From the NCBI RefSeq assembly GCF_016429285.1, contig NZ_JAELUI010000039.1, forward strand, positions 1-44,688: a stretch of 44,688 nt of DNA, given 5' to 3'. Source of the stretch: Ralstonia sp. ASV6. GTDB lineage: Bacteria; Pseudomonadota; Gammaproteobacteria; Burkholderiales; Burkholderiaceae. The notes beneath the pieces were generated by a model. The model worked only from the letters and a program-made list of their open reading frames with translations. It ran no database searches and had not been told where the DNA came from. Positions 33,038 to 44,688 of the stretch are shown here, piece after piece. Position numbers and translations under genes: made by a program. Each line of letters begins with the position of its first letter. Position 1 is the first letter of the stretch.

Positions 33038-33139
33038 CCACTTTCTGCATGGGAGTTTGTCTGCGCCAGACTTCAGAAGGGGCGCGGACCGGCCGTTATA
33101 GCGGGTGCCGCAACCTGTTTTTTGCCCGCTTTGACTCCC

Positions 33140-34993
33140 ATGTTTAATCGACTCTCCATCCGTTTCCGACTCAATGCAGCCCTTGCGCTGCTCGCCGTGC
33201 TGCTGGCCACGATTGGCACCATTGGCGTGGTCGGCATGCGCGCATCCGACGCGAACAGCAAAGAGATCTATACCAACCAGCTCGCTTCGACCTCGCTGGT
33301 TGCCAAATCGCAACTGAACGCAGCCATCGTGCGCACCACGCTGGATCGCGCGGTTTTCCACCTCGACGCCGCTGACGTACCAGCCATCCTCGACAAGGCT
33401 GACGGTTATCGCGCAAAGTCGAACGAGGCCTGGAAACAGTACAAGGCGCTGCCCATGAGCGCTGATGAGGCGCGGCTGGCTGAAGATATGGAAGCCAAGC
33501 GCACGGCGCTGTTTCGCGACGGTATCGACCCATTGATGGCCGCGCTGCGCGCCCGCGATGCCGCTGCCGCTGACAAGGTGGTGATGAACACGATTCCGCC
33601 GCTGTCCGTGGCGCTGTCCGCCGCTGCGGATGCGCTGGACCGCAGCCAGACCGAACAGGCGAAGGCCGGCTACGACCGCGCAGTGGCGCGCTCGCACGGT
33701 TTCCTGATGCTGTGCATCGGCGCCGTTGTGGTGGGCATTGCGGCAGCGCTGGGCTGTGCGTTTGGTCTGCACCGCGCGATCTCTGTACCGCTGTCGCGCA
33801 TGCTTGGCCACTTTGGCGAGATTTCACGCGGTAACCTGACCGAGCACATCACCGTGACCAGCCATGACGAAATGGGCGCGCTCACCCGCGGCCTGATCGA
33901 CATGCAGCGTGGGCTGATCCGCACCATCGAGACGATGCGCGGCGGCAGCGATTCCATTGCCAGCGCGACCAAGCAGATTGCCGCCGGCAATCTTGATCTC
34001 TCGCAGCGCACGGAAGAGCAGGCATCTTCGCTGGAAGAGACGGCTTCCAGCATGGAAGAGCTGACCTCCATCGTGAAGCAGAACGCCGACAATGCACGCC
34101 AGGCCAGCCAGCTTGCTGGCAACGCATCAGACATCGCAGTCAAGGGCGGCGAAGTGGTGGGCCGCGTTATCGAAACGATGTCGGGCATCAACAACAGCAG
34201 CAAGAAGATCGCCGACATCATCGGCGTGATTGAAGGCATTGCCTTCCAGACCAACATCCTCGCCCTGAATGCCGCGGTGGAGGCTGCGCGTGCAGGCGAA
34301 CAAGGCCGTGGCTTTGCCGTGGTGGCCGGTGAAGTGCGCAGCCTGGCGCAGCGCTCGGCCACGGCGGCCAAGGAAATCAAGGAACTCATCAGCGATTCGG
34401 TTGGCCGTGTTGAAAACGGTTCGACGCTGGTGACCGAAGCCGGTACGGTGATTGACGAAGTGGTGGTGGCCGTCAAACGCGTGACCGACATCATGGGCGA
34501 GATCAGTGCCGCGTCGGATGAGCAGAGCGCGGGTATTGAGCAGGTCAACCAGGCCGTCACACAGATGGACGAAGTGACGCAGCAGAACGCGGCGTTGGTG
34601 GAAGAGGCTGCAGCCGCTGCGCAATCGCTGGAGGAGCAGGCTGGTGTGCTGCGCGAGACGGTGGCTTCGTTCCGTCTGCCGCCGGCCGGTGCACACGCCG
34701 CGTCGACGACGAGCATCAAGCCTGTAGTTGCTGCCTCCGCCGTTGCACCTGCCGCCAAAGCCGCCATGCCGGTGGCCATCAAGCCTGCGCCTCGCAAGCC
34801 TGCGGCGGTAAAGGCTCGTGCGATTGTGCGCAAGCCTGCAGTGGCGCCTGCAGCCGTAGAGCCGACGATGGCACCTTCACCAACCGCCGCACCTGCTGCC
34901 GCTGCGTCCATGCCGGTGGCACCCGCACCGAAGACCGGCAAACTGGCTCTGGCAGCATCGACCAGCGACGCGGACGACTGGGAGCAGTTCTAA
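33140..34993 (+). CDS. methyl-accepting chemotaxis protein
   Basis: The 617-residue receptor starts at [22 protein letters not shown] (ATG at 33140). It has a transmembrane helix at about 11-34, a periplasmic four-helix-bundle-like sensor (about 35-185) and a second helix at about 190-212. HAMP spans about 213-268 ([26 protein letters not shown]). In the signalling domain, [36 protein letters not shown] is the hairpin that contacts CheA and CheW. Beyond about residue 515, a long Ala/Pro/Lys-rich linker ends in DDWEQF, a C-terminal W-x-x-F motif of the kind that tethers CheR or CheB. The ligand is unknown. No chemotaxis operon adjoins it. An earlier ATG at 33122 lies in frame. Confidence 0.92.
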
Positions 34994-35736
34994 GCGTTGA
35001 TTTAGCCCTGGCGGCTGCGCATCACGCGCGGCCGCATGTTTCAGCGCTGCAACCGGATCGCTTGGCTGGCGCAGCCGATGTTGTCGATATTGCTGCATCG
35101 GCAGGAAAGCGGTGCGCCCGCTGTGCCGCCGCACCGGCCGATTCTGCACGGTGATCTTTGCGCATCAATGCGGGAGTACACAGACTTCCCGCAAAGCCTT
35201 ATGCCAAAAGGCTTCACAATCTCTTCAAACTTGTTGCGCGCTGCCCTCTGAACGCGTGTGCGTCCCGCCGCGCAATGTCCTCGCAAGCTCGCCTCATCCA
35301 AACAGCCTGCGCCTGACCGCAATGTCCCTCCGCCGTTTGTAGGGCGGCCCTATCGGCTACCCGGACGATCGTTGCGTGACCATGACGTGCATTGCATGCC
35401 GCGGCCATGATTGTTCCTGCGCGGCGTCGGGTTGAGCGCGTTCATCCTTGCAACAACGCGGTACGCTCCGCACCCGCGCAGCGCCCCCCGCGTTATGCCG
35501 CACCGCGTAACGGCGCGCCTTGGCGAGCCTTGGTACGGTCCTCGCGTTGCTTGTTTCCCGAAGCGAATCACAGAACGAAGCATTGGCTACCACTTGCCAG
35601 AAACGGTGGGGTCCACATGCCACGGCGCGCCATTGCGCCGCACGCCAAAAAGAACCTTGGGGGAAGCAATGAGCGCCATAGCGCAAAGCGGGGGAGCGGC
35701 CGGGCACCTTTTTGACGCCGGCGCGTGGGAGGGGCC
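34994..35736. other. 743-base gap with tandem hairpins upstream of nfrB
   Basis: This is the longest gene-free stretch in the window. At 35170-35192 an imperfect hairpin (GCGGGAGT with ACTTCCCGC) is followed directly by a perfect 7-bp hairpin (AAGCCTT 35194-35200, AAGGCTT 35208-35214). No T run follows. It could be the 3' end of the chemoreceptor transcript or a structured leader or RNA about 520 bases upstream of the NfrB-like gene. The rest is GC-rich with no coherent open frame. Short overlapping frames have no protein character. A long 5' leader for the exopolysaccharide locus is possible. Confidence 0.5.
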
Positions 35737-37854
35737 ATGAGCGATGTGCCATGGGAAATCTACCTGGCGTTGCTCAACACGCTGACGGTGGCGACCACGC
35801 TCGTCATCCTCATCAGCACCGCCGACGATTTCTTTCTGGACGCCTTCTACTGGGTGCGGGAACTGTGGCTCTGGCCGCAGCGCGGTCGCACGCCCGTCAC
35901 CATCTCGGCCCAGGCGCTACGCGAGCGCGAGGAGCGGTGGCTGGCCATCATGGTGCCGGCCTGGAAGGAGTACGACGTTATCGCCAAGATGGTGGAGAAC
36001 ACCTTGGCGACGATGGAGTACACGCACTTCATCATTTTTGCCGGGGCCTACCGCAATGATGCGGAAACCACCACCGAGGTCGAGCGCATGGTGCGCCGCT
36101 ATCCGGGGCGCGTGGTGCGGGCGGCTGTCACGCACGACGGCCCCACCTGCAAGGCCGACTGCCTGAACACCATCATCCAGACCATCATCCGCCACGAGGC
36201 AGGCCACGGCATCCGCTTTGCGGGCGTGATCATGCACGACTGCGAAGACGTGATTCACCCGCTGGAGCTGAAGTATTTCAATTACTTCATCGGCGATCAG
36301 GATCTCGTGCAGCTGCCAGTGCTCTCGCTTGAGCGCAAGTGGTACGAGTGGGTGGCCGGCACTTACATGGATGACTTCTCAGAGACACACCAAAAGGATC
36401 TGGTGGCGCGTCAGGCCCTGACCGGCACGGTGCCGGGGGCAGGTGTGGCGCTGTGCTACAGCCGTCGTGCCATTGAGGCCGTGATGAAGGTGCGCGGTGA
36501 TTCGCCCTTCAATACCAGCACGCTGACTGAGGACTACGACTTCAGCTTCCGCCTGCGTGAATTGGGCATGCGTGAAGCCTTCGTGCACTTCCCGATCTGT
36601 GAAAACGCGGCGCCTACTGAAGACGCCGAGGGCAACACGCGCACGCGCTGGCGTCTTGGGCGCCGCCGTGGCGTGCGCCCGCAGCTGCTGGCTACGCGAG
36701 AGTATTTCCCCAGCACTTTCCGAACCGCCTACCGGCAACGTGCGCGCTGGGTACTCGGCATTGCATTCCAGGGTTGGCTGCAGATGGGGTGGAAGGGCAA
36801 CCTCATCACCCGGTACATGTTCTTCCGTGACCGCAAGGGTGTGGTGACCGCACTGTTTTCGATCCTGGCGTATGTGCTCTCGCTCAACTATCTGGTGATT
36901 GGTGCGCTGCTGGTTAAGGGATGGGTTGCGATTCCGGATGGCTCTTTCGTGGTCGGCTCTGCATGGATGCAGGACTTGCTGGCCGTCAACGCAACGCTGC
37001 TGTTCAACCGGCTGGCGCAGCGCGTGTATTTTGTCGGGCGCCTGAATGGTCCGCTGCAGGGCGTGCTGTGCTTGCCCAGGCTGGTGGTGAACAACTTCAT
37101 CAACTTCTTCTCGGTATGCCGGGCGTGGAAGATCTTCCTGATCTATTGCCTGACCGGTAAGCCGATCGCGTGGGACAAGACCCAGCACACCTACCTGTCG
37201 AACGACGCGCTCGGCCGCACACGCTGCATGCTGGGTGAAACGTTGCTCAAATGGGAAGTGCTGACGCAGGCGCAGCTTGATGCGGCTTTGGCCATACAAC
37301 ACGAAACCGGCCGCCGGCTCGGGACCATCCTGGTCCAGCAAGGGCTGATCACGCCCGACACGCTGGCCGATGCGCTGGCCGAGCAGGTTGACCTGCCGCG
37401 CGTGAGCCTGACCAACGTCGTGTTGGGCGCATTGGCGGATTGTCTGCCGCGCGACCTGGCTGTGCGGCATCACGTGGTGCCGTTTTCCATTGGCGAGGAC
37501 GGCTCGCTGAATGTCGCCGTGTCGGAGTTGCCCAATGGTGAAGTGTTGGACGAGTTGGCCCGCGCGGCCGGGCGCAAGGTTGCGTGCTTCATGGCATGCG
37601 ACCACGAGATGTCGGCCGAGTTGATGCTGATGGCTGACCCCAATCGCCGTGCCACCGTCGTATTTGGCCCAGCGGCGTATTCGGCTACGCTAGCCGTTGA
37701 ATCCATGACGGGCGCCGGCCCGGCAGTAGCAGGCACGGCATCCGCAACCGAGGCTCCCCCCATCCCCCCGATACCTTCGGGGCCGGTCTTGCAAGGTCTG
37801 GCCTCCGGCCCTGAGGTACACCCCAATCCATCTGTTGCGGGAGGTGTGGCATGA
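35737..37854 (+). CDS. nfrB: NfrB-like membrane glycosyltransferase with C-terminal MshEN c-di-GMP domain
   Basis: The 705-residue protein starts at MSDVPW (ATG 35737, GGGAGGGG upstream). An N-terminal transmembrane helix (about 8-30) precedes a GT2 domain with HDCEDV (Asp168, Glu170/Asp171), TED (264-266, catalytic base) and QRARW (334-338, the QxxRW motif of processive synthases). Several helices follow (about 370-485). The C-terminal domain (about 490-640) is MshEN-like: a degenerate first motif (MLGETLLKWEVLTQAQL, 498-514) and a near-perfect second (RLGTILVQQGLITPDTL, 527-543, ending Gln550). In E. coli, NfrB is a c-di-GMP-activated exopolysaccharide synthase whose product is the phage N4 receptor. 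The stop overlaps the NfrA-like gene (ATGA). Confidence 0.88.
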   Translation: MSDVPWEIYLALLNTLTVATTLVILISTADDFFLDAFYWVRELWLWPQRGRTPVTISAQALREREERWLAIMVPAWKEYDVIAKMVENTLATMEYTHFIIFAGAYRNDAETTTEVERMVRRYPGRVVRAAVTHDGPTCKADCLNTIIQTIIRHEAGHGIRFAGVIMHDCEDVIHPLELKYFNYFIGDQDLVQLPVLSLERKWYEWVAGTYMDDFSETHQKDLVARQALTGTVPGAGVALCYSRRAIEAVMKVRGDSPFNTSTLTEDYDFSFRLRELGMREAFVHFPICENAAPTEDAEGNTRTRWRLGRRRGVRPQLLATREYFPSTFRTAYRQRARWVLGIAFQGWLQMGWKGNLITRYMFFRDRKGVVTALFSILAYVLSLNYLVIGALLVKGWVAIPDGSFVVGSAWMQDLLAVNATLLFNRLAQRVYFVGRLNGPLQGVLCLPRLVVNNFINFFSVCRAWKIFLIYCLTGKPIAWDKTQHTYLSNDALGRTRCMLGETLLKWEVLTQAQLDAALAIQHETGRRLGTILVQQGLITPDTLADALAEQVDLPRVSLTNVVLGALADCLPRDLAVRHHVVPFSIGEDGSLNVAVSELPNGEVLDELARAAGRKVACFMACDHEMSAELMLMADPNRRATVVFGPAAYSATLAVESMTGAGPAVAGTASATEAPPIPPIPSGPVLQGLASGPEVHPNPSVAGGVA

Positions 37855-39605
37855 CTACCGAGAGAACCATCCGTTCCACCCCGCGCCGCGCAGGTTGGCC
37901 GATCAGGTGGCCCATCGCTGCCGCAGTTTGGGCGCTATGTCATGGTGTATCCATGGCGGAGCAGACGGCGCAACCGCTTCAGCCCGACGCGTACTTCCGC
38001 GCAGACCGCGCTTACCATGCGATCGACGCCAACAAGCTCGATGATGCCGAAGCCGCCACGCGCGCCGCGTTGGTCGTGCAGCCTGACAGCCTGCAACTGA
38101 ACCTGCTGCTGCTCGATGTGCTTACGCGCAAAGGCCAGTTGGATGCGGCGCGCACGCAAGCCGATGCCCTCGTGCAGAAGTACCCCAACGAGCCGCGCGT
38201 GTATGCGCAGCACGGGTTCCTCGCGCAGAAGGCGAATGACCCGGCCACGGCCGAACAGGATTTCGCCCGTGCCGTCCAGGGCACGGACTGGACACCGCAG
38301 GAGCAGCGCAACCTGCGCCTTGCGTGGTCGGACAGCGCGTATTCAGCCAAGCACCCGCAGGCTGCGCTGGATGCACTGACGCCGCTGCAGGATCAACCCG
38401 ACCCTGACGTGCAACTGCGTCTCGCGCAATCGCGGCTGCAGTTGGGCGATCGCGCTGGCGCTGCCCAGGCTGCCAAGCTGGCTGCCGAACGCGCGACAGA
38501 CCCTGCCCGTCAACATTACGCACAAGCACTGCTTGCCCAGGCGATGGCACCGCAGGCGCAAAGTCCGGTTGCACCGGTTGACGACTCGCGCGTTGCCGGC
38601 CAGCGCGCGTTGAACGAAGCCTATGACCACCTGCGGGCACGCGATGACCGTGCAGCGCTCGCAGCCTTTCAGCGCGGTTTCGCTACGGGGCAGGGCAACT
38701 GGAGCCACTACGCGGATGCCGCCTACGCTGCCAAGCGCCTGGGCGACAACCCGACCGCCATCACGCTGTTCCGCAAGAGCCTGGACGTAGCCGATACCGA
38801 CGCCAATACCAAGAGCGACGTTGGCGGCAATGGCAATGACAGCCTTCCCGCTGACCGCCGCTTCGGCTATCGCCGCGAGGTGGAGCAGATGCAGCGCACC
38901 TGGGGCATGGTGCTGTCCGGCGCGTACCAGACATCGGCGTTTGGCCTGCCCAACACGGTAAGCGTGCTGCAGGGGGGCGCGGAGGTCTACTGGCAGCCTC
39001 CCGGCATCGGCTATCGAGACGGCAGCATCTTCCAGCTCTTCGTGCGCGGTTACGACAACCTTTATGACGGCAACGGCATCGCCGGCCTGCCGACGGCGCA
39101 AGGGTCGGTGGGGGCGCGCTATAAGCCGATCAAGGATCTCAATCTGGTGTTCACCGCCGAGCGGTTGATCCGCATCGGTACCCAGTCTGTCAATGACACG
39201 CTGCTGCGCATCGGCTTCTCCACCGACCAGGGCATCGACCTGCAGGTCACCAAACCGCGCTGGCAGACCTGGCAGGCGTATGGGGAAGGCGCGTACTTTC
39301 TCAATCAGGGCCGCATGATCATCAGCACCGAAGCGCGCTACGGCCACACCTGGTTACTCAACTCGATCAGCGATCATCTGACGGTCTATCCGCACGTGGT
39401 ACTGGCTGGTGACCACGACAACAAGGCCACCGACCGGCAACTCGCGCTGGGTATCGGCCCCGGCATCAACTTTCGCTACTGGTTTCGAGAGACGCAATAC
39501 AGCGCCCCGGCCAGTTGGCTGGATCTCACCGTGCAATACCGTCTGCCCCTGACCCACGCCGACCGGGCGAAGGGCGTAGTAGCGCGCGCCATCCTTTGGT
39601 TCTAG
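37851..39605 (+). CDS. nfrA: NfrA-like outer-membrane exopolysaccharide export protein (TPR + barrel)
   Basis: The 584-residue protein has a signal sequence (core WPIRWPIAAAVWALCHGVSMA). About 230 residues of TPR-like helical repeats follow (residues 45-270; for example ALVVQPDSLQLNLLLLDVLTRKGQLDAARTQADALVQKYPNEPRVYAQHGFLAQKANDPATA). The C-terminal part (about 340-584) alternates strands and ends YRLPLTHADRAKGVVARAILWF, as in outer-membrane barrels and NfrA C-terminal domains. NfrA is the outer-membrane component that exports the NfrB polymer and serves as phage N4 receptor in E. coli, where it is about 990 residues. This version is much shorter, mainly because it has fewer TPRs. It overlaps nfrB by 4 bases. 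Confidence 0.82.
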   Translation: MTTERTIRSTPRRAGWPIRWPIAAAVWALCHGVSMAEQTAQPLQPDAYFRADRAYHAIDANKLDDAEAATRAALVVQPDSLQLNLLLLDVLTRKGQLDAARTQADALVQKYPNEPRVYAQHGFLAQKANDPATAEQDFARAVQGTDWTPQEQRNLRLAWSDSAYSAKHPQAALDALTPLQDQPDPDVQLRLAQSRLQLGDRAGAAQAAKLAAERATDPARQHYAQALLAQAMAPQAQSPVAPVDDSRVAGQRALNEAYDHLRARDDRAALAAFQRGFATGQGNWSHYADAAYAAKRLGDNPTAITLFRKSLDVADTDANTKSDVGGNGNDSLPADRRFGYRREVEQMQRTWGMVLSGAYQTSAFGLPNTVSVLQGGAEVYWQPPGIGYRDGSIFQLFVRGYDNLYDGNGIAGLPTAQGSVGARYKPIKDLNLVFTAERLIRIGTQSVNDTLLRIGFSTDQGIDLQVTKPRWQTWQAYGEGAYFLNQGRMIISTEARYGHTWLLNSISDHLTVYPHVVLAGDHDNKATDRQLALGIGPGINFRYWFRETQYSAPASWLDLTVQYRLPLTHADRAKGVVARAILWF

Positions 39606-39839
39606 CGGCCAGGAGCCCAGGTGTCACGGATGAAACGATTTTGATCAACGAGGGGTACGGGCAACGACGATGAAGGGCAGTGGTGCACGCGCGATGGCGT
39701 CGTAGCGCCAGGGCAAGACCAGGCGGGATACATGGCACGACCTTCGCTCTAGGGTGAAATCTGCGCCGGTGTCAGAAGCGACGCGCTCGTCGTCGCGCTT
39801 GGAGTGACCAGCCGATGCAAATGACATGGGGAGAGCAAG

Positions 39840-41099
39840 ATGACCGGGAAGATTTTGACAGTGTTCGGCACGCGGCCAGAGGCGATCAAGATGGCGCCGC
39901 TGGTAAAGGCGTTGCAAGCCGAGGCAGGCTTCACGTCGGCGGTGTGTGTGAGCGCGCAGCACCGGCAGATGCTCGATCAGGTCTTGCAGCTCTTCGGCAT
40001 CGTGCCGGAGTTTGATCTGAACCTGATGCAGCCTGGGCAGACGTTGTCGGGCATCACCTCCAGCGTGCTGGGCGGCATCGACGGCGTACTGGATGCTTTC
40101 CAGCCCGACGCCGTGCTGGTGCATGGCGACACCACCACCACACTGGCCGCCAGCCTTGCAGCGTTCTACCGGCGTATCCCCGTGGGGCATGTCGAGGCAG
40201 GATTGCGCACGGGCAACATCTGGTCTCCGTGGCCGGAGGAGCTGAACCGCCGCGTGACCGATTCCGTGACCACTTGGCACTTTGCACCAACAGCTGAATC
40301 GCGCCAGAACCTGCTGGATGAAGGCATCGACCCGAGCCAGGTCACGCTCACCGGCAACACCGTTATCGACGCACTGCTGTCTGTGAAACGGCGCCTGGAT
40401 GCCGATGCGGCGCTATCGGCGGAGATGGCTGCGCGCTATCCATTCTTCGACGCGGGGCGGCGGATGATTCTCGTGACCGGGCATCGGCGCGAAAACTTTG
40501 GCGAGCCGTTCGAGAACTTCTGCGTGGCGTTGCGCTTGCTGGCGGCGCGCCACCCGGATCTGCAGATCGTCTATCCGGTGCATCTGAACCCGAACGTGCA
40601 GCAGCCGGTGAATGCCATCCTGGCAGGCCATGACAACGTTCATCTGATCGCGCCGCAAGACTACTTGCCGTTCGTCTACCTGATGGACCGAGCCTATCTG
40701 ATCGTCACCGATTCCGGCGGCATTCAGGAAGAGGCGCCTGCGCTGGGCAAACCGGTGCTGGTGACGCGTGACACAACCGAGCGGCCCGAGGCCGTGGCTT
40801 CCGGCACCGCACGCCTGGTTGGCACCGATACACAGCGCATCGTGGCGGAAGCCGAAACGCTCCTGCAGGACTCCGACGAATACCAGCGCATGGCGCAAGC
40901 CCACAACCCATATGGCGATGGCCACGCATGCCGTCGCATCGTCGATGCATTGAAAGCGGCCTTCGAGGCGCCCGCCAAGGTGGTGGCGCGTGGCCCGCAA
41001 CTCGTTCGCAAGCCGGCCACCGAGGCCGAGATCATCAATCTGGAAGCGGCACGCGCCACGGCGCTTGAGGCTGCGTCTGCGCAACGCCTGAACGGCTAG
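39840..41099 (+). CDS. wecB: UDP-N-acetylglucosamine 2-epimerase (WecB)
   Basis: The 419-residue cytoplasmic enzyme converts UDP-GlcNAc to UDP-ManNAc. Motifs visible are [78 protein letters not shown] and [28 protein letters not shown]. These match the non-hydrolysing epimerase family. A 40-residue C-terminal tail (from about 380; ending [13 protein letters not shown]) exceeds the usual length of about 376. The gene lies 234 bases after nfrA, with GGGGAG before the ATG. Placement with NfrB/NfrA fits the E. coli finding that WecB supplies UDP-ManNAc for the NfrB polymer. It could also serve other ManNAc pathways. Confidence 0.95.
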
Positions 41100-41108
41100 G
41101 AGGCTTGG

Positions 41109-41561
41109 ATGAAAGCGAAACGCATCGGGGCTGGCATCTTGCTGGCCTCCGCCCTGGTTGCCGGATGGCTGGTGTTGGCGCCACCGTGGGCCGGCAATGC
41201 GGGGGTTCCTGCCGTGGTTACAGGGGGTTCTGAGCAGCGCAATCCCAGCATGGATGCAGACAAGGCAAAGCCTGCATCCGCTTCCCCCAATGGCACGGTC
41301 GTGGCCGGGCAGCCCGCACAGGCAGCTGTTGTGGCTGTGGCCACACACAAGCCCGTGACCGGGGGCGGACGCGCCTACGGCTACGGCGTCATGGATGAAA
41401 ACGGGCAGGTCGTTCCGCCGCCGCGCCCACCTGGCATGACCGAAATCCGTCCCGGCATGCCAGAGAACGAGCCAACCGGCACGGAACGTGGCCACGACCG
41501 TGGTCCCAACTTCAACCTCGGGCTCTACCGCCAAGCGGATGGCTCGGTGTATCGCCCATGA
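41109..41561 (+). CDS. orphan membrane-anchored or exported protein of the exopolysaccharide locus
   Basis: The 150-residue protein has an N-terminal hydrophobic segment (about 6-26; IGAGILLASALVAGWLVLAPP), either a signal anchor or a signal peptide. An Ala/Ser/Pro-rich low-complexity region follows (about 35-85). The C-terminal part (GGGRAYGYGVMDENGQVVPPPRPPGMTEIRPGMPENEPTG, then NFNLGLYRQADGSVYRP) is Pro/Gly-rich. No family is recognised. It follows wecB by 9 bases with AGGAGG overlapping the wecB stop, so it is cotranscribed, and it directly precedes the deacetylase-like gene. A role as small scaffold or periplasmic partner of glycan export is speculative. Confidence 0.7.
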   Translation: MKAKRIGAGILLASALVAGWLVLAPPWAGNAGVPAVVTGGSEQRNPSMDADKAKPASASPNGTVVAGQPAQAAVVAVATHKPVTGGGRAYGYGVMDENGQVVPPPRPPGMTEIRPGMPENEPTGTERGHDRGPNFNLGLYRQADGSVYRP

Positions 41562-41575
41562 GTCGGAGAGCCATC

Positions 41576-43303
41576 ATGAAATCGATGTTTCGTAAGTTCC
41601 TATGCGCACTGATCTTTGCGGGCAGCCTGCTCGGCATCTCGCTGACCGGGCCAGCGCAGGCGTCCACTTGCACCATTGGGCTCGGGCCCATTTGCGTGAC
41701 GGTCGGCACAACGGCTTCGGCGCAGACCACGCCGGCTCCCATCCTGGTGTTGTACGATGCGCCCGCCAATGACCAGTACACCAACCTGGGCAAGGCGTAC
41801 GCGATCATGCTGTACAACCTGCTCGCGCACTTCAATACCACCATCACGATGCTGCCCGTGCAGAATTACACGGCTGGCATGACCGAGCAGTACACCGCCA
41901 CGTTCTATATGGGCAGTTATTACGCCAACCCTATACCGGCGGCGTTCCTGTCCGACGTGAGCACCACGCAAAAGACTGTCGTCTGGTTCAAGTACAACCT
42001 GTGGGAGCTGGCCTGGAACACGGCGTATCCGTTCACCTCGCGCTATGGCATCACATTCTCCAGCCTCGCCGGCATGAATGCTGCGCCGTCGGCTAGTGCC
42101 CCCAACCCTGGTTTCTACGATACGGTCACGTACAAGAACCAGACCATGACCAAGTACTACGCCTTCAACGCCACGACCGGGGCCATTTCCGCAGATCCGG
42201 ACATTGGCGTGACTGCGGTGGCCGACGCCACCAAGGCCACGGCTCTGGTGACCATCTCTAACTCGGTCAATCCCACCGCATATCCGGCCGTGCCGTACGT
42301 AATCCGCTCCGGCAATTTCTGGTACTTCGCCGACATGCCGTTCTCGTTCATCGGACCGCGTGATCGCTATCTGGTGGTCTGCGACATGCTGCACGATATT
42401 CTCGGCACCAACGCGCCGACGCAGCATCGTGCGCTGGTCAGGTTGGAGGACCTCAACGCCACCAATACCGTATCGTCGATCGAAACGCTGGCAGGCTATC
42501 TGTACGGCAAGAAGATCCCGTTCTCGCTTGCAACCATCCCGCTCTACACCGACCCGAATGGCGTCTACAACGGTGGCGTGGCACAGACCATTCACATGGT
42601 CAATGCGACAGGGTTGAAACAAGCGCTCAACTACTCGATTGCACGCGGCGGCAAGCTCCTGATGCACGGTTACACGCACCAGTACAGCAATATCCCCAAC
42701 CTTGTGAACGCCGTCAGCGCGAACGACTACGAGTTCTGGCTCGCTACGTTGAACCGGCCGGTGAATGAGGATTCAACGCAGTGGGCGGCAGGACGCCTGT
42801 CTGCCGGGTTACTGGAGTTGCAGCTCAACGGCTACACGCCGTTTGCATGGGAGGCACCACACTACCAATCCTCTCCACTGGCCATTGCGGCGGTGCCGAA
42901 GTACTTCAAGAACACATACCAACGCGTGGTGTACTACACGTCAAGCAACCCGCAGACGTTGAATGCAACCACGCCGGGCCATGACTTCTCGGTCGGCCAG
43001 TTCTTCCCCTACATCATTCAGAAGGACTACTACGGCCAGCGCGTGATTCCTGAGAACCTGGGTAACGTGGAGTACAACATCTGCAATATCGACCCGTCGT
43101 CGTGCCTGACGTACACCGCACAGGACATCCTGACGAACGCCAACTATGCGCTGGTTGTGCGCGATGGTTTTGCTTCGTTCTTCTTCCATCCATTCTGGCT
43201 TGAACCCGATCTTGGTACGCCAGGCTATGCGGACTTCCAAACCATCATTACCGGCATCACCAACCTGGGCTTTACCTGGGTAGATGCCAGCACGGCGCAG
43301 TAG
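41576..43303 (+). CDS. DUF2334 polysaccharide-deacetylase-like secreted protein
   Basis: The 575-residue protein starts at MKSMFRKFLCALIFAGSLLGIS (ATG 41576, behind GGAG). An upstream ATG at 41558 overlaps the previous stop but lacks a ribosome site. A signal peptide ends near AQAS. The first half (about 45-270) is a separate domain of unknown fold. From about 285 the DUF2334 deacetylase-like core shows RLEDLNA (289-295), MHGYTHQ (363-369), WEAPHY (425-430) and FFFHPFW (His538), a likely metal-binding His/Asp set as in CE4-type enzymes. It would act on the glycan in the periplasm or outside the cell, perhaps deacetylating ManNAc/GlcNAc residues. Enzyme activity is not proven by these motifs. 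Confidence 0.85.
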   Translation: MKSMFRKFLCALIFAGSLLGISLTGPAQASTCTIGLGPICVTVGTTASAQTTPAPILVLYDAPANDQYTNLGKAYAIMLYNLLAHFNTTITMLPVQNYTAGMTEQYTATFYMGSYYANPIPAAFLSDVSTTQKTVVWFKYNLWELAWNTAYPFTSRYGITFSSLAGMNAAPSASAPNPGFYDTVTYKNQTMTKYYAFNATTGAISADPDIGVTAVADATKATALVTISNSVNPTAYPAVPYVIRSGNFWYFADMPFSFIGPRDRYLVVCDMLHDILGTNAPTQHRALVRLEDLNATNTVSSIETLAGYLYGKKIPFSLATIPLYTDPNGVYNGGVAQTIHMVNATGLKQALNYSIARGGKLLMHGYTHQYSNIPNLVNAVSANDYEFWLATLNRPVNEDSTQWAAGRLSAGLLELQLNGYTPFAWEAPHYQSSPLAIAAVPKYFKNTYQRVVYYTSSNPQTLNATTPGHDFSVGQFFPYIIQKDYYGQRVIPENLGNVEYNICNIDPSSCLTYTAQDILTNANYALVVRDGFASFFFHPFWLEPDLGTPGYADFQTIITGITNLGFTWVDASTAQ

Positions 43304-43305
43304 TC

Positions 43306-44208
43306 ATGCGCTGGATGCGCTCGATACTGGCGGCAGCAACGCTGGTGTTGGGCGCCTCCACAAATGCCGCGGGGCCGGTGGGCACATTGCCTGCCGGCCC
43401 CGCGCCGCTATATGGCGTGACGGTGGATGCGGTGGACAACGTGCCCGCCGTGGTCGATGCGCTCTCGCACCTGTCACGCACGCCCACCGTGCGCATCGTC
43501 TTTGATGAAGGGATGGACGCACCGGACTACGCCGCGCCTGTCGCTGCCATCCGGCGCGTGGCCTACGTGATGGGCGAGCTGGTCGATTCGTCCACGCTCA
43601 GGCAAATCACCGTGCAGCAGATGCGCGAGCGCGCCAGCACATACGTTGATGCGCTGGGCCGTAACGTCGACATCTGGGAAGTCGGCAACGAGATCAACGG
43701 CGAGTGGACCGGCAGCACGCGCGATGTCATCGACAAGACGCTGGCCGCTTACGACGCCATCAAGCAGCGCGGTGGCCGCACGGCGCTCACGCTCTACTAC
43801 AACGAAGGCTGCGCTGAAACGCCATCACGCACCATGTTTGACTGGACCGAGCACAATTTGCCGCCAAGCCTGCGCAATGGCGTGGACTATGTATTCATCA
43901 GCTTTTACGAAGACGATTGCAAGATCGCACCGCCCGACTGGAACGCCGTATTCGACCACCTTGGAAGCCTGTTTCCGCAGGCGATGCTTGGCTTTGGAGA
44001 GGTCGGCACACGCCATGCGGCAGGCAAGGGCACATTGATCGCGCACTACTACGGCTTGTCGATTGCGCATCCGCGATTCGTTGGCGGCTATTTCTGGTGG
44101 TACTTCCGGCAGGACATGGTGCCGCGCACGCGACCGCTCTGGCGCAGCATCGACGCGGCCTTTCAGTCGATGCCAGCCAAACTGTTGCGAACGTCGCCTA
44201 CGCCCTAG
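43306..44208 (+). CDS. secreted clan-A-like glycoside hydrolase
   Basis: The 300-residue protein has a signal peptide (MRWMRSILAAATLVLGASTNAAG). It then has a TIM-barrel glycosidase pattern: WEVGNEINGEW with Glu129 as likely acid/base, FISFYEDDC (about 200) and GFGEVG with Glu232 as likely nucleophile. The pair separation (about 100 residues) fits retaining clan GH-A enzymes. The start lies only 2 bases after the deacetylase stop, without a clear ribosome site, so it is probably translated by coupling. A hydrolase at the end of a glycan locus may trim or release the polymer, as with the extra gene ybcH beside nfrAB in E. coli; homology to it was not tested. Its end overlaps a convergent channel gene by 11 bases. 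Confidence 0.82.
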   Translation: MRWMRSILAAATLVLGASTNAAGPVGTLPAGPAPLYGVTVDAVDNVPAVVDALSHLSRTPTVRIVFDEGMDAPDYAAPVAAIRRVAYVMGELVDSSTLRQITVQQMRERASTYVDALGRNVDIWEVGNEINGEWTGSTRDVIDKTLAAYDAIKQRGGRTALTLYYNEGCAETPSRTMFDWTEHNLPPSLRNGVDYVFISFYEDDCKIAPPDWNAVFDHLGSLFPQAMLGFGEVGTRHAAGKGTLIAHYYGLSIAHPRFVGGYFWWYFRQDMVPRTRPLWRSIDAAFQSMPAKLLRTSPTP

Positions 44209-44688
44209 CCCGTGTGCCTGGGTACTGCAGACCTTGCGGCGGCTGTCCATGGGTCTGCCCATCGGGCTCGACGGGTTCACCATGGCGTCGCACAAGCTGG
44301 ATGGTGCGGGTCGGCAGTGCGAAGGCTGCCCCGAGGTTCTGCAGCTCTTCAAGAATCGCCAGGTTGATGCGCTGCTGGATATCCATGTAGAGGTTGAAAT
44401 CGGGGCTGGTCACGAAGTACACCACCTCGAAGTTCAGCGCGTTCTCGCCAAATTCCTTGAAGTGCGCACGATCGAAGCGCGTATCTCCCGCCGTCTCGAC
44501 GGCGTGGCGCACGATGTCCGGGATCTTCTTCAACTGCGCGGCACGCGCGTCGTACGTCACCCCGAACGCGAACACGATGCGTCGTTCCTGCATCCGCTTG
44601 TAATTGTGGATCGTACTTTTGAGTAACGCAGTGTTGGACGTCACGATCTCTTCGCCCGAGAGGCTGCGGATGCGTGTGGTCTTGAGCC
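44198..44688 (-). CDS. MscS family mechanosensitive channel, C-terminal fragment
   Basis: The frame continues to the right edge, giving the last 162 residues. The visible part starts LKTTRIRSLSGEEIVTSN and TALLKSTIHNYKRM, the conserved MscS beta-domain segment (RIRxxDGxxVxIPNxxL in the family). It continues with the alpha/beta cytoplasmic domain (ERRIVFAFGVTYDARAAQLKKIPDIVRHAV; FKEFGENALNFEVVYFV). The membrane helices lie outside the window. The protein releases solutes under hypo-osmotic shock. It converges on the glycosidase gene with an 11-base overlap. Confidence 0.9.
   Translation of the reverse strand, partial: LKTTRIRSLSGEEIVTSNTALLKSTIHNYKRMQERRIVFAFGVTYDARAAQLKKIPDIVRHAVETAGDTRFDRAHFKEFGENALNFEVVYFVTSPDFNLYMDIQQRINLAILEELQNLGAAFALPTRTIQLVRRHGEPVEPDGQTHGQPPQGLQYPGTRARA

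Follow-up and report, generated by a model that had tools for sequence, protein, structure and literature searches.

An Nfr-type exopolysaccharide locus with a putative deacetylation module in Ralstonia

A surface polymer discovered not long ago, the Nfr glycan is controlled by cyclic di-guanosine monophosphate (c-di-GMP) and serves as a phage receptor. With Escherichia coli, the main text of Junkermeier and Hengge (PMC8669469) described the nfrBA-ybcH genes, binding of c-di-GMP, dependence on UDP-N-acetylmannosamine (UDP-ManNAc) and linkage with wecB, and reported NfrB homologues in 406 further species; the linkage of wecB and nfrB outside E. coli was published there, in 2021. According to the main texts, WecB alone of the enterobacterial common antigen (ECA) pathway is needed for the E. 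coli glycan (PMC8669469, PMC8669472), and YbcH is non-essential and dispensable for infection by phage N4 (PMC8669469). An nfr cluster of Achromobacter with homologues of BcsB and of an O-acetyltransferase was noted in the text of Sellner et al. (PMC8669472). The locus considered here lies in a stretch of 44,688 nucleotides from Ralstonia sp. ASV6 (GCF_016429285.1, contig NZ_JAELUI010000039.1, positions 1-44,688, forward strand), hereafter the window, and carries beside nfrB, nfrA and wecB a DUF2334 gene, a small gene and a gene resembling those of glycoside hydrolases (GH).

The locus probably directs synthesis of an Nfr-type exopolysaccharide and includes a deacetylation module; its product would be a c-di-GMP-activated, probably beta-linked ManNAc polymer that undergoes partial N-deacetylation and trimming while in the periplasm. 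The supporting observations, made at the level of sequence, cover gene content, conservation, linkage, the folds of models and residues of catalytic type; the identity of the substrate, the type of linkage, the deacetylation itself, the binding of c-di-GMP and what the small protein does are deduced from them. Six packed open reading frames (ORFs) on the + strand fill the final 8.5 kb of the window, and all proved to be open at the boundaries proposed in an earlier, sequence-only reading of this DNA:

35737..37854, + strand: nfrB, processive inner-membrane glycosyltransferase of family 2 (GT2) with a C-terminal MshEN c-di-GMP domain (NF012033, 1138 bits; PF13641; PF05157; NF053729)
37851..39605, + strand: nfrA, tetratricopeptide repeat (TPR) region and C-terminal outer-membrane domain, exporter (PF13283 NfrA_C, residues 412-580)
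39840..41099, + strand: wecB, non-hydrolysing UDP-N-acetylglucosamine (UDP-GlcNAc) 2-epimerase, supply of UDP-ManNAc (TIGR00236)
41109..41561, + strand: small ORF, small, probably secreted proline-motif protein linked to DUF2334 (hidden Markov model (HMM) match in the window, 80 bits)
41558..43303, + strand: DUF2334 gene, N-terminal alpha/beta domain and domain resembling N-deacetylases of carbohydrate esterase (CE) family 4 (PF10096, 2.2e-40; model)
43306..44208, + strand: GH-like gene, probably secreted clan GH-A-like glycosidase with a (beta/alpha)8 barrel (model and conserved Glu)

Four-base overlaps join nfrB to nfrA and the small ORF to the DUF2334 gene, the GH start follows the DUF2334 stop after two bases, and the gap between nfrA and wecB is 234 bases.

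In the proposed pathway, WecB would make UDP-ManNAc, and c-di-GMP bound to MshEN would activate NfrB to polymerise ManNAc across the inner membrane. As an inverting GT2 enzyme, NfrB should produce beta linkages, and enzymes of clan GH-A prefer beta bonds; on account of this chemistry and the presence of WecB, the polymer would be beta-linked ManNAc. In the periplasm, the DUF2334 protein would strip N-acetyl groups by a metal-dependent mechanism like that of CE4, CE18 and PelA, probably helped in this genus by the small secreted protein, and the GH-A protein would trim or clear the chain. What NfrA exports would then be a polymer of ManNAc and mannosamine (ManN) that is cationic in part; if this is true, deacetylation and trimming would alter the charge and stickiness of the chain.

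Judged by comparison with related genomes, the gene set is one conserved system and not a chance assembly, as had been proposed from the sequence of the window. Order and orientation of the six genes were identical in 12 of 12 other loci of the genus, which had been selected by their linked GH gene (contig ends truncate one, L046). When the whole of 16 genus genomes was searched, nfrB, DUF2334 and the small gene each turned up in the same 15; the remaining one (G087) has none of these and no GH gene. The GH gene was present in 28 of 150 genomes of the family, including 13 of the 14 genus genomes of that draw. In two other genera (five loci), nfrB, nfrA, wecB, GH and DUF2334 stay grouped and their order and strand vary; a grouping kept despite such change speaks for function rather than simple descent of an operon. 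The sequence-only reading would have been refuted had the deacetylase and glycosidase not remained next to nfrAB in related genomes; they do remain there.

A broader survey was seeded with DUF2334, no nfr gene being part of the query. An alignment of the family was searched against named genomes, the best 80 of 340 relatives were analysed, and the HMMs for the other locus genes were built from genes of the same 80 loci. With tblastn and HMMs in agreement, nfrB was found within approximately 10 kb in 60 of the 80. These 60 loci further contained nfrA (57), the small gene (53), wecB (46) and a gene of the YbcH/DUF4434 family (46); GH was present in 29, GH and/or a YbcH-family gene in 56, and both in 19. 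The loci came from Ralstonia, Burkholderia, Paraburkholderia, Trinickia, Collimonas, Comamonas, Ramlibacter and other Burkholderiales, with further ones from Azoarcus, Halopseudomonas, Microbulbifer and a metagenome-assembled genome labelled Omnitrophota. A glmS-type gene, pointing to amino-sugar supply, adjoins the DUF2334/nfr locus in four Burkholderiaceae (L067, L070, L077 and L102; SIS and glutaminase domains scanned in L067, HMM matches in all four).

By fold, the DUF2334 protein appears to group with polysaccharide N-deacetylases (Agd3, NDST1, PelA and CE4 enzymes). Foldseek matches of its structure model (mean confidence, pLDDT, 85.6) include NDST1, Agd3 as second best, ArnD and the pseudo-enzyme BA3943, and the matches listed by the VIA structure comparison include PelA and CE4 enzymes. 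Residues of catalytic type, E297, D298, H370, H374, R456 and H544, were invariant in 32 of 32 rows; the HxxxH and Asp metal triad (D298, H370, H374), a catalytic His (H544) and a base-coordinating Arg (R456) are present, the roles of R456 and H544 being assigned by motif order and not by geometry. The gene is single-copy in this genome. Fold and residues of the models thus favour the earlier assignment of a deacetylase and a glycosidase that follow the logic of the poly-N-acetylglucosamine (PNAG) and Pel systems, and a concrete, testable role can be proposed for a domain of unknown function.

The GH-like protein appears to belong to clan GH-A, the members of which share a (beta/alpha)8 barrel with one Glu after strand 4, in an Asn-Glu pair, and another at strand 7. 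Its model is such a barrel, with N128-E129 where strand 4 ends and E232 within strand 7, and both Glu residues were invariant in 21 of 21 rows. No Pfam or NCBIfam family exceeded its cut-off in library scans of the GH-like protein or the small ORF; by sequence, matches of the GH-like protein to the PDB were weak (best E 0.18, unrelated), and the hydrolase family of PelA is absent among the VIA matches listed for it. The notion that it is a diverged E. coli YbcH (DUF4434) was rejected at the sequence level (BLASTP E 0.28; profile probability 0.7%). It appears instead to be a lineage-specific component, since many of the 60 loci with DUF2334 and nfrB hold a YbcH-family gene in its place (27) or in addition (19); the latter loci also dispose of a strict alternation of the two. 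No HMM match to the YbcH/DUF4434 family was obtained in the window locus or the genus loci. A second GH-A copy occurs unlinked in 13 of 14 genus genomes, here on contig C371 (L027:9026-9964) beside what by eye is a galU-like gene; in the three genomes examined, this copy groups with the GH that is linked to nfr genes in Burkholderia and Trinickia.

Described previously as an orphan membrane-anchored protein, the small ORF is a real gene but no orphan: it belongs to a family of small proteins tied to DUF2334 and, to judge by eye from starts resembling signal peptides, probably secreted. None of the library profiles scanned covers this family. An iterated HMM search of 16,296 six-frame segments, started from ten family rows (eight of Ralstonia type and two relatives, the window row excluded), yielded 64 matches, each in a different one of the 80 DUF2334 loci, and one Pro and one Gly of the core PPP[LR]P...PGM were retained in 64 of 64 rows. 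With other HMM settings, 66 genes were found, 65 of them immediately preceding DUF2334 in the same orientation; the exception (L109:9433-9699) lies on the opposite strand, divergent from its DUF2334. The 16 genus genomes together contain 20 small genes and as many full DUF2334 genes, which adjoin each other in 19 pairs; for the twentieth, the match stops 17 bases short of the contig end. The small gene tracks DUF2334 and not NfrAB, because it accompanies DUF2334 in 13 of the 20 loci without nfrB and was not found in any of 18 nfrB loci lacking DUF2334. The protein may assist the DUF2334 enzyme. Its description as an obligate partner was dropped; it was never seen without DUF2334, yet DUF2334 occurs without it.

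NfrB of the window shares 39% identity over 613 columns with that of E. coli and matches both GT2 and MshEN profiles (PF05157, 9e-11; NCBIfam c-di-GMP motif NF053729, 64.7 bits, cut-off 38). The glycosyltransferase motifs are present as H167-D-C-E-D171, T264-E-D and Q334-R-A-R-W338 (DxD, TED and QxxRW types), and the MshEN positions were located at L499 G500 and L528 G529. At all six MshEN positions that have been altered by mutation in the E. coli protein (L490, G491, L505, L509, L518 and G519), the aligned Ralstonia protein has the same residue, which suggests that its MshEN domain binds c-di-GMP; in E. coli, only G491L and G519S among the mutated positions impaired infection and most substitutions were without effect, as given in the main text (PMC8669472). 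With the DUF2334-bearing loci L087, L099, L107, L118, L119, L151 and L156, the NfrB matches extend over approximately 480-540 amino acids (HMM extents, not full ORFs) with MshEN short or missing, and some such NfrB may escape control by c-di-GMP. NfrA starts with what by eye resembles a signal peptide and matches NfrA_C at 5.7e-47 and, slightly below the cut-off, TPR_16 at 5.2e-07. WecB scored 514.6 bits with TIGR00236 (cut-off 210). The copy in the window is indeed extra, as had been supposed: a genome search located wecB-type sequence at three places, one being part of a second nfr locus (contig C18:1-6835) that comprises an nfrA cut by the contig end, an nfrB of 48% identity, a BcsB-like gene and wecB. 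DUF2334, the small gene and GH were not found within that 6,835-base stretch. A second nfrB copy occurs in two further genus genomes also.

Several observations weigh against a dedicated, ManNAc-based deacetylation system. In a survey seeded with nfrB (draws of 200 and 399 genomes of the order and 369 of the class, every match being mapped), 23 loci were obtained, including that of the window and the one on C18; 18 of these, all elsewhere than in the window, lack DUF2334, and the small gene accompanied it in one of the five that have it, namely the window itself. Conversely, the stretch examined contains no nfrB in 20 of the 80 DUF2334 loci (contig ends cut at least six of these short), and the enzyme therefore also occurs outside nfr loci; 14 of the 80 have no small gene, five of these beginning at a contig end; and the c-di-GMP motif is missing in 4 of 34 NfrB. 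Fourteen of the 60 loci with DUF2334 and nfrB have no wecB in reach, as would be expected if the polymer were not based on ManNAc, with NfrB using UDP-GlcNAc or a mixture, WecB working for a different pathway or supplying a minor residue, and DUF2334 de-N-acetylating a GlcNAc-type chain. Weak matches of NfrB to the PNAG synthase PgaC (TIGR03937; 3 of 34 and 3 of 19) favour the same view, and the glmS-type gene beside four loci fits any UDP-HexNAc. It is nevertheless unlikely, given that wecB is present in the other 46 of the 60 and lies just past 10 kb in some of those lacking it (approximately 12 kb away in the Burkholderia-type loci L031, L032 and L034 when a longer reach was taken), and that the E. 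coli glycan needs only WecB of the ECA pathway.

That DUF2334 and GH are instead accessory housekeeping enzymes, acting on the cell wall or on mislocalised polymer for turnover or clearance and not tailoring the exported chain, would accommodate the 14 DUF2334 copies that have no nfrB in a stretch not cut close to the gene, the second GH copy away from the locus and the dispensability of YbcH in E. coli. A quickly built DUF2334 tree with 84 rows (65 linked to nfr, 14 standing alone and 5 unclear) has the stand-alone copies scattered and requires at least five changes of label. However, 12 of the 14 share an assembly with an nfr-linked copy among the 80 (by accession prefix, by eye; the exceptions are L104 and L121), each of the 16 genus genomes has either all or none of nfrB, DUF2334 and the small gene, and the fold matches include enzymes that modify polysaccharides during synthesis or secretion; this explanation is regarded as improbable. 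The assignment of enzyme activity has its own difficulties. The position of the usual catalytic-base Asp is Glu (E297) in all 32 rows, and a sequence search of the PDB with the DUF2334 profile gave no matching chain at E values up to 1, so that the enzymatic reading rests on fold and residues. NDST1 and Agd3 are absent among the 50 VIA matches listed, and a viral turret protein, a glucanotransferase and an allantoinase among them score like CE4. CE4 pseudo-enzymes are known, BA3943 being one of the fold matches, and a binding scaffold inactivated by this Glu, its alpha/beta domain merely holding the chain, could be envisaged. Such a role is very improbable, as a dead enzyme would not need D298, H370, H374, H544 and R456 to be invariant.

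Within the preferred reading of an Nfr locus with a deacetylation module, the nfrB-seeded survey offers a further contrast. The five DUF2334-bearing loci are those of the window, L151, L156, L157 and L160, three of the genes being merely low-scoring relatives, and an AlgI-type O-acetyltransferase was found in three loci (L142, L144 and L145), none of which also has DUF2334, although several stretches end at contig ends. AlgI was found in none of the 80 DUF2334 loci. AlgI-like genes in 3 of 18 nfrB loci without DUF2334 versus 0 of 64 with it give a Fisher p of 0.009, for sets sampled differently and of related rows; any exclusivity of acetyltransferase and deacetylase is therefore suggestive only. 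It is conceivable, but doubtful, that mutually exclusive and chemically distinct flavours of Nfr polymer exist: one N-deacetylated by DUF2334, with the small partner in most Burkholderiales loci fetched, as cationic beta-ManNAc/ManN, and the other O-acetylated by MBOAT/AlgX proteins. Confidence in this was lowered slightly because the small gene is present in just one of the five DUF2334 loci noted above. The main text of Sellner et al. (PMC8669472) reports that N4-type phages needing WecB have tailspikes that are glycan deacetylases, and a possible consequence is that self-deacetylation could hide the receptor from such phages.

Other features were recorded around these loci. Just upstream of nfrB in the window (33122-34993) is a gene for a methyl-accepting chemotaxis protein, and a family of like length also lies 5' of nfrB in Ralstonia loci. 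No Rfam RNA reached the gathering threshold in 34900-44688, and a search for sigma-70-like promoters in 35000-44688 was uninformative (none found; shuffle mean 2.1). More than one DUF2334 gene may be present, with three in L085 (9974-15340), two in L113 and two in L156. Ramlibacter-type loci (L094, L098, L103, L105, L108, L110, L111 and L117) encode a protein of 480-960 amino acids after the YbcH-family gene or nfrA, with a FimV_N match below cut-off in L094, and contain a BcsB-like gene and DUF2334 together. A DUF2334 in two frames (L102), short pieces of nfrB (L084) and wecB (L058) and two stop-bearing DUF2334 fragments (G058:C57) suggest that the locus sometimes decays. DUF2334 relatives were found on three of 72,556 plasmid records (NZ_CP091982.1, CP099603.1 and NZ_CP108510.1), one a Streptomyces plasmid with 34% identity over 93%, and phage records gave no match at 1e-3.

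The sequence-only reading had taken this version of the locus to be undescribed for Ralstonia-like bacteria. That does not apply to the linkage of nfrB and wecB, already known, or to nfr clusters with BcsB and O-acetyltransferase genes; the apparently new element is the deacetylase module, of which no description in nfr loci was found in literature searches and in the main-text passages of PMC8669469 and PMC8669472, although Fig. 7B, Fig. S5 and the supplements there could show DUF2334. The text of PMC8669469 has no word beginning 'deacetyl' or 'glycosid', and that of PMC8669472 uses 'deacetylase' for phage tailspikes only. Literature searches returned marine metagenomes for DUF2334, phages Moo19 and B2 for nfrB with Ralstonia, nothing for DUF4434 and Sellner et al. 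alone for NfrB with deacetylase and ManNAc; for a mannosamine polymer, the titles listed concerned nanoparticle coatings and E. coli or meningococcal vaccines or vesicles, besides Sellner et al.

Compared with the E. coli NfrB-NfrA-YbcH and WecB system (N4 glycan receptor, NGR), the Ralstonia locus shares an NfrB with glycosyltransferase motifs and MshEN, an NfrA_C exporter, the UDP-ManNAc epimerase and the overlap of nfrB and nfrA; it differs in having wecB inside the locus together with DUF2334, the small protein and the GH-A protein, and in an NfrA of 584 amino acids versus 990. The Achromobacter-type cluster also groups nfrA, nfrB and wecB in a betaproteobacterium, with BcsB and O-acetyltransferase genes where the window locus has a deacetylase. 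The second Ralstonia locus on C18 is of this BcsB type, and an O-acetyltransferase beyond the contig end inside its nfrA would be unseen.

The DUF2334 protein resembles Agd3 (CE18, a galactosaminogalactan deacetylase) and PelADA (CE26) in combining an N-terminal alpha/beta domain with a CE domain, and differs from them in a first motif of Glu-Asp and not Asp-Asp and in its want of a sequence-level PDB match. PelA is a CE21 deacetylase that also has a hydrolase domain; unlike the Pel system, the Ralstonia locus encodes the two enzymes separately, with a GH-A barrel as hydrolase and the GT2 enzyme NfrB as synthase, and ManNAc is expected in place of GalNAc. The PNAG system has a TPR outer-membrane exporter, as has Nfr. 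Its PgaB/IcaB-type arrangement of a c-di-GMP-controlled GT2 synthase and a periplasmic deacetylase is likewise similar, the differences being the sugar, the linkage and the separate genes for deacetylase and glycosidase in Ralstonia. Homologues of Agd3 occur in bacterial exopolysaccharide operons, with Burkholderia among the species, and the text describing them gives these operons other synthesis genes, often with GH114 (PMC7229062). The deacetylase, the small protein and the GH-A enzyme, present across many Burkholderiales, would provide handles for determining the Nfr polymer, and they suggest that it could be matured by N-deacetylation, as are PNAG, Pel and the fungal galactosaminogalactan.

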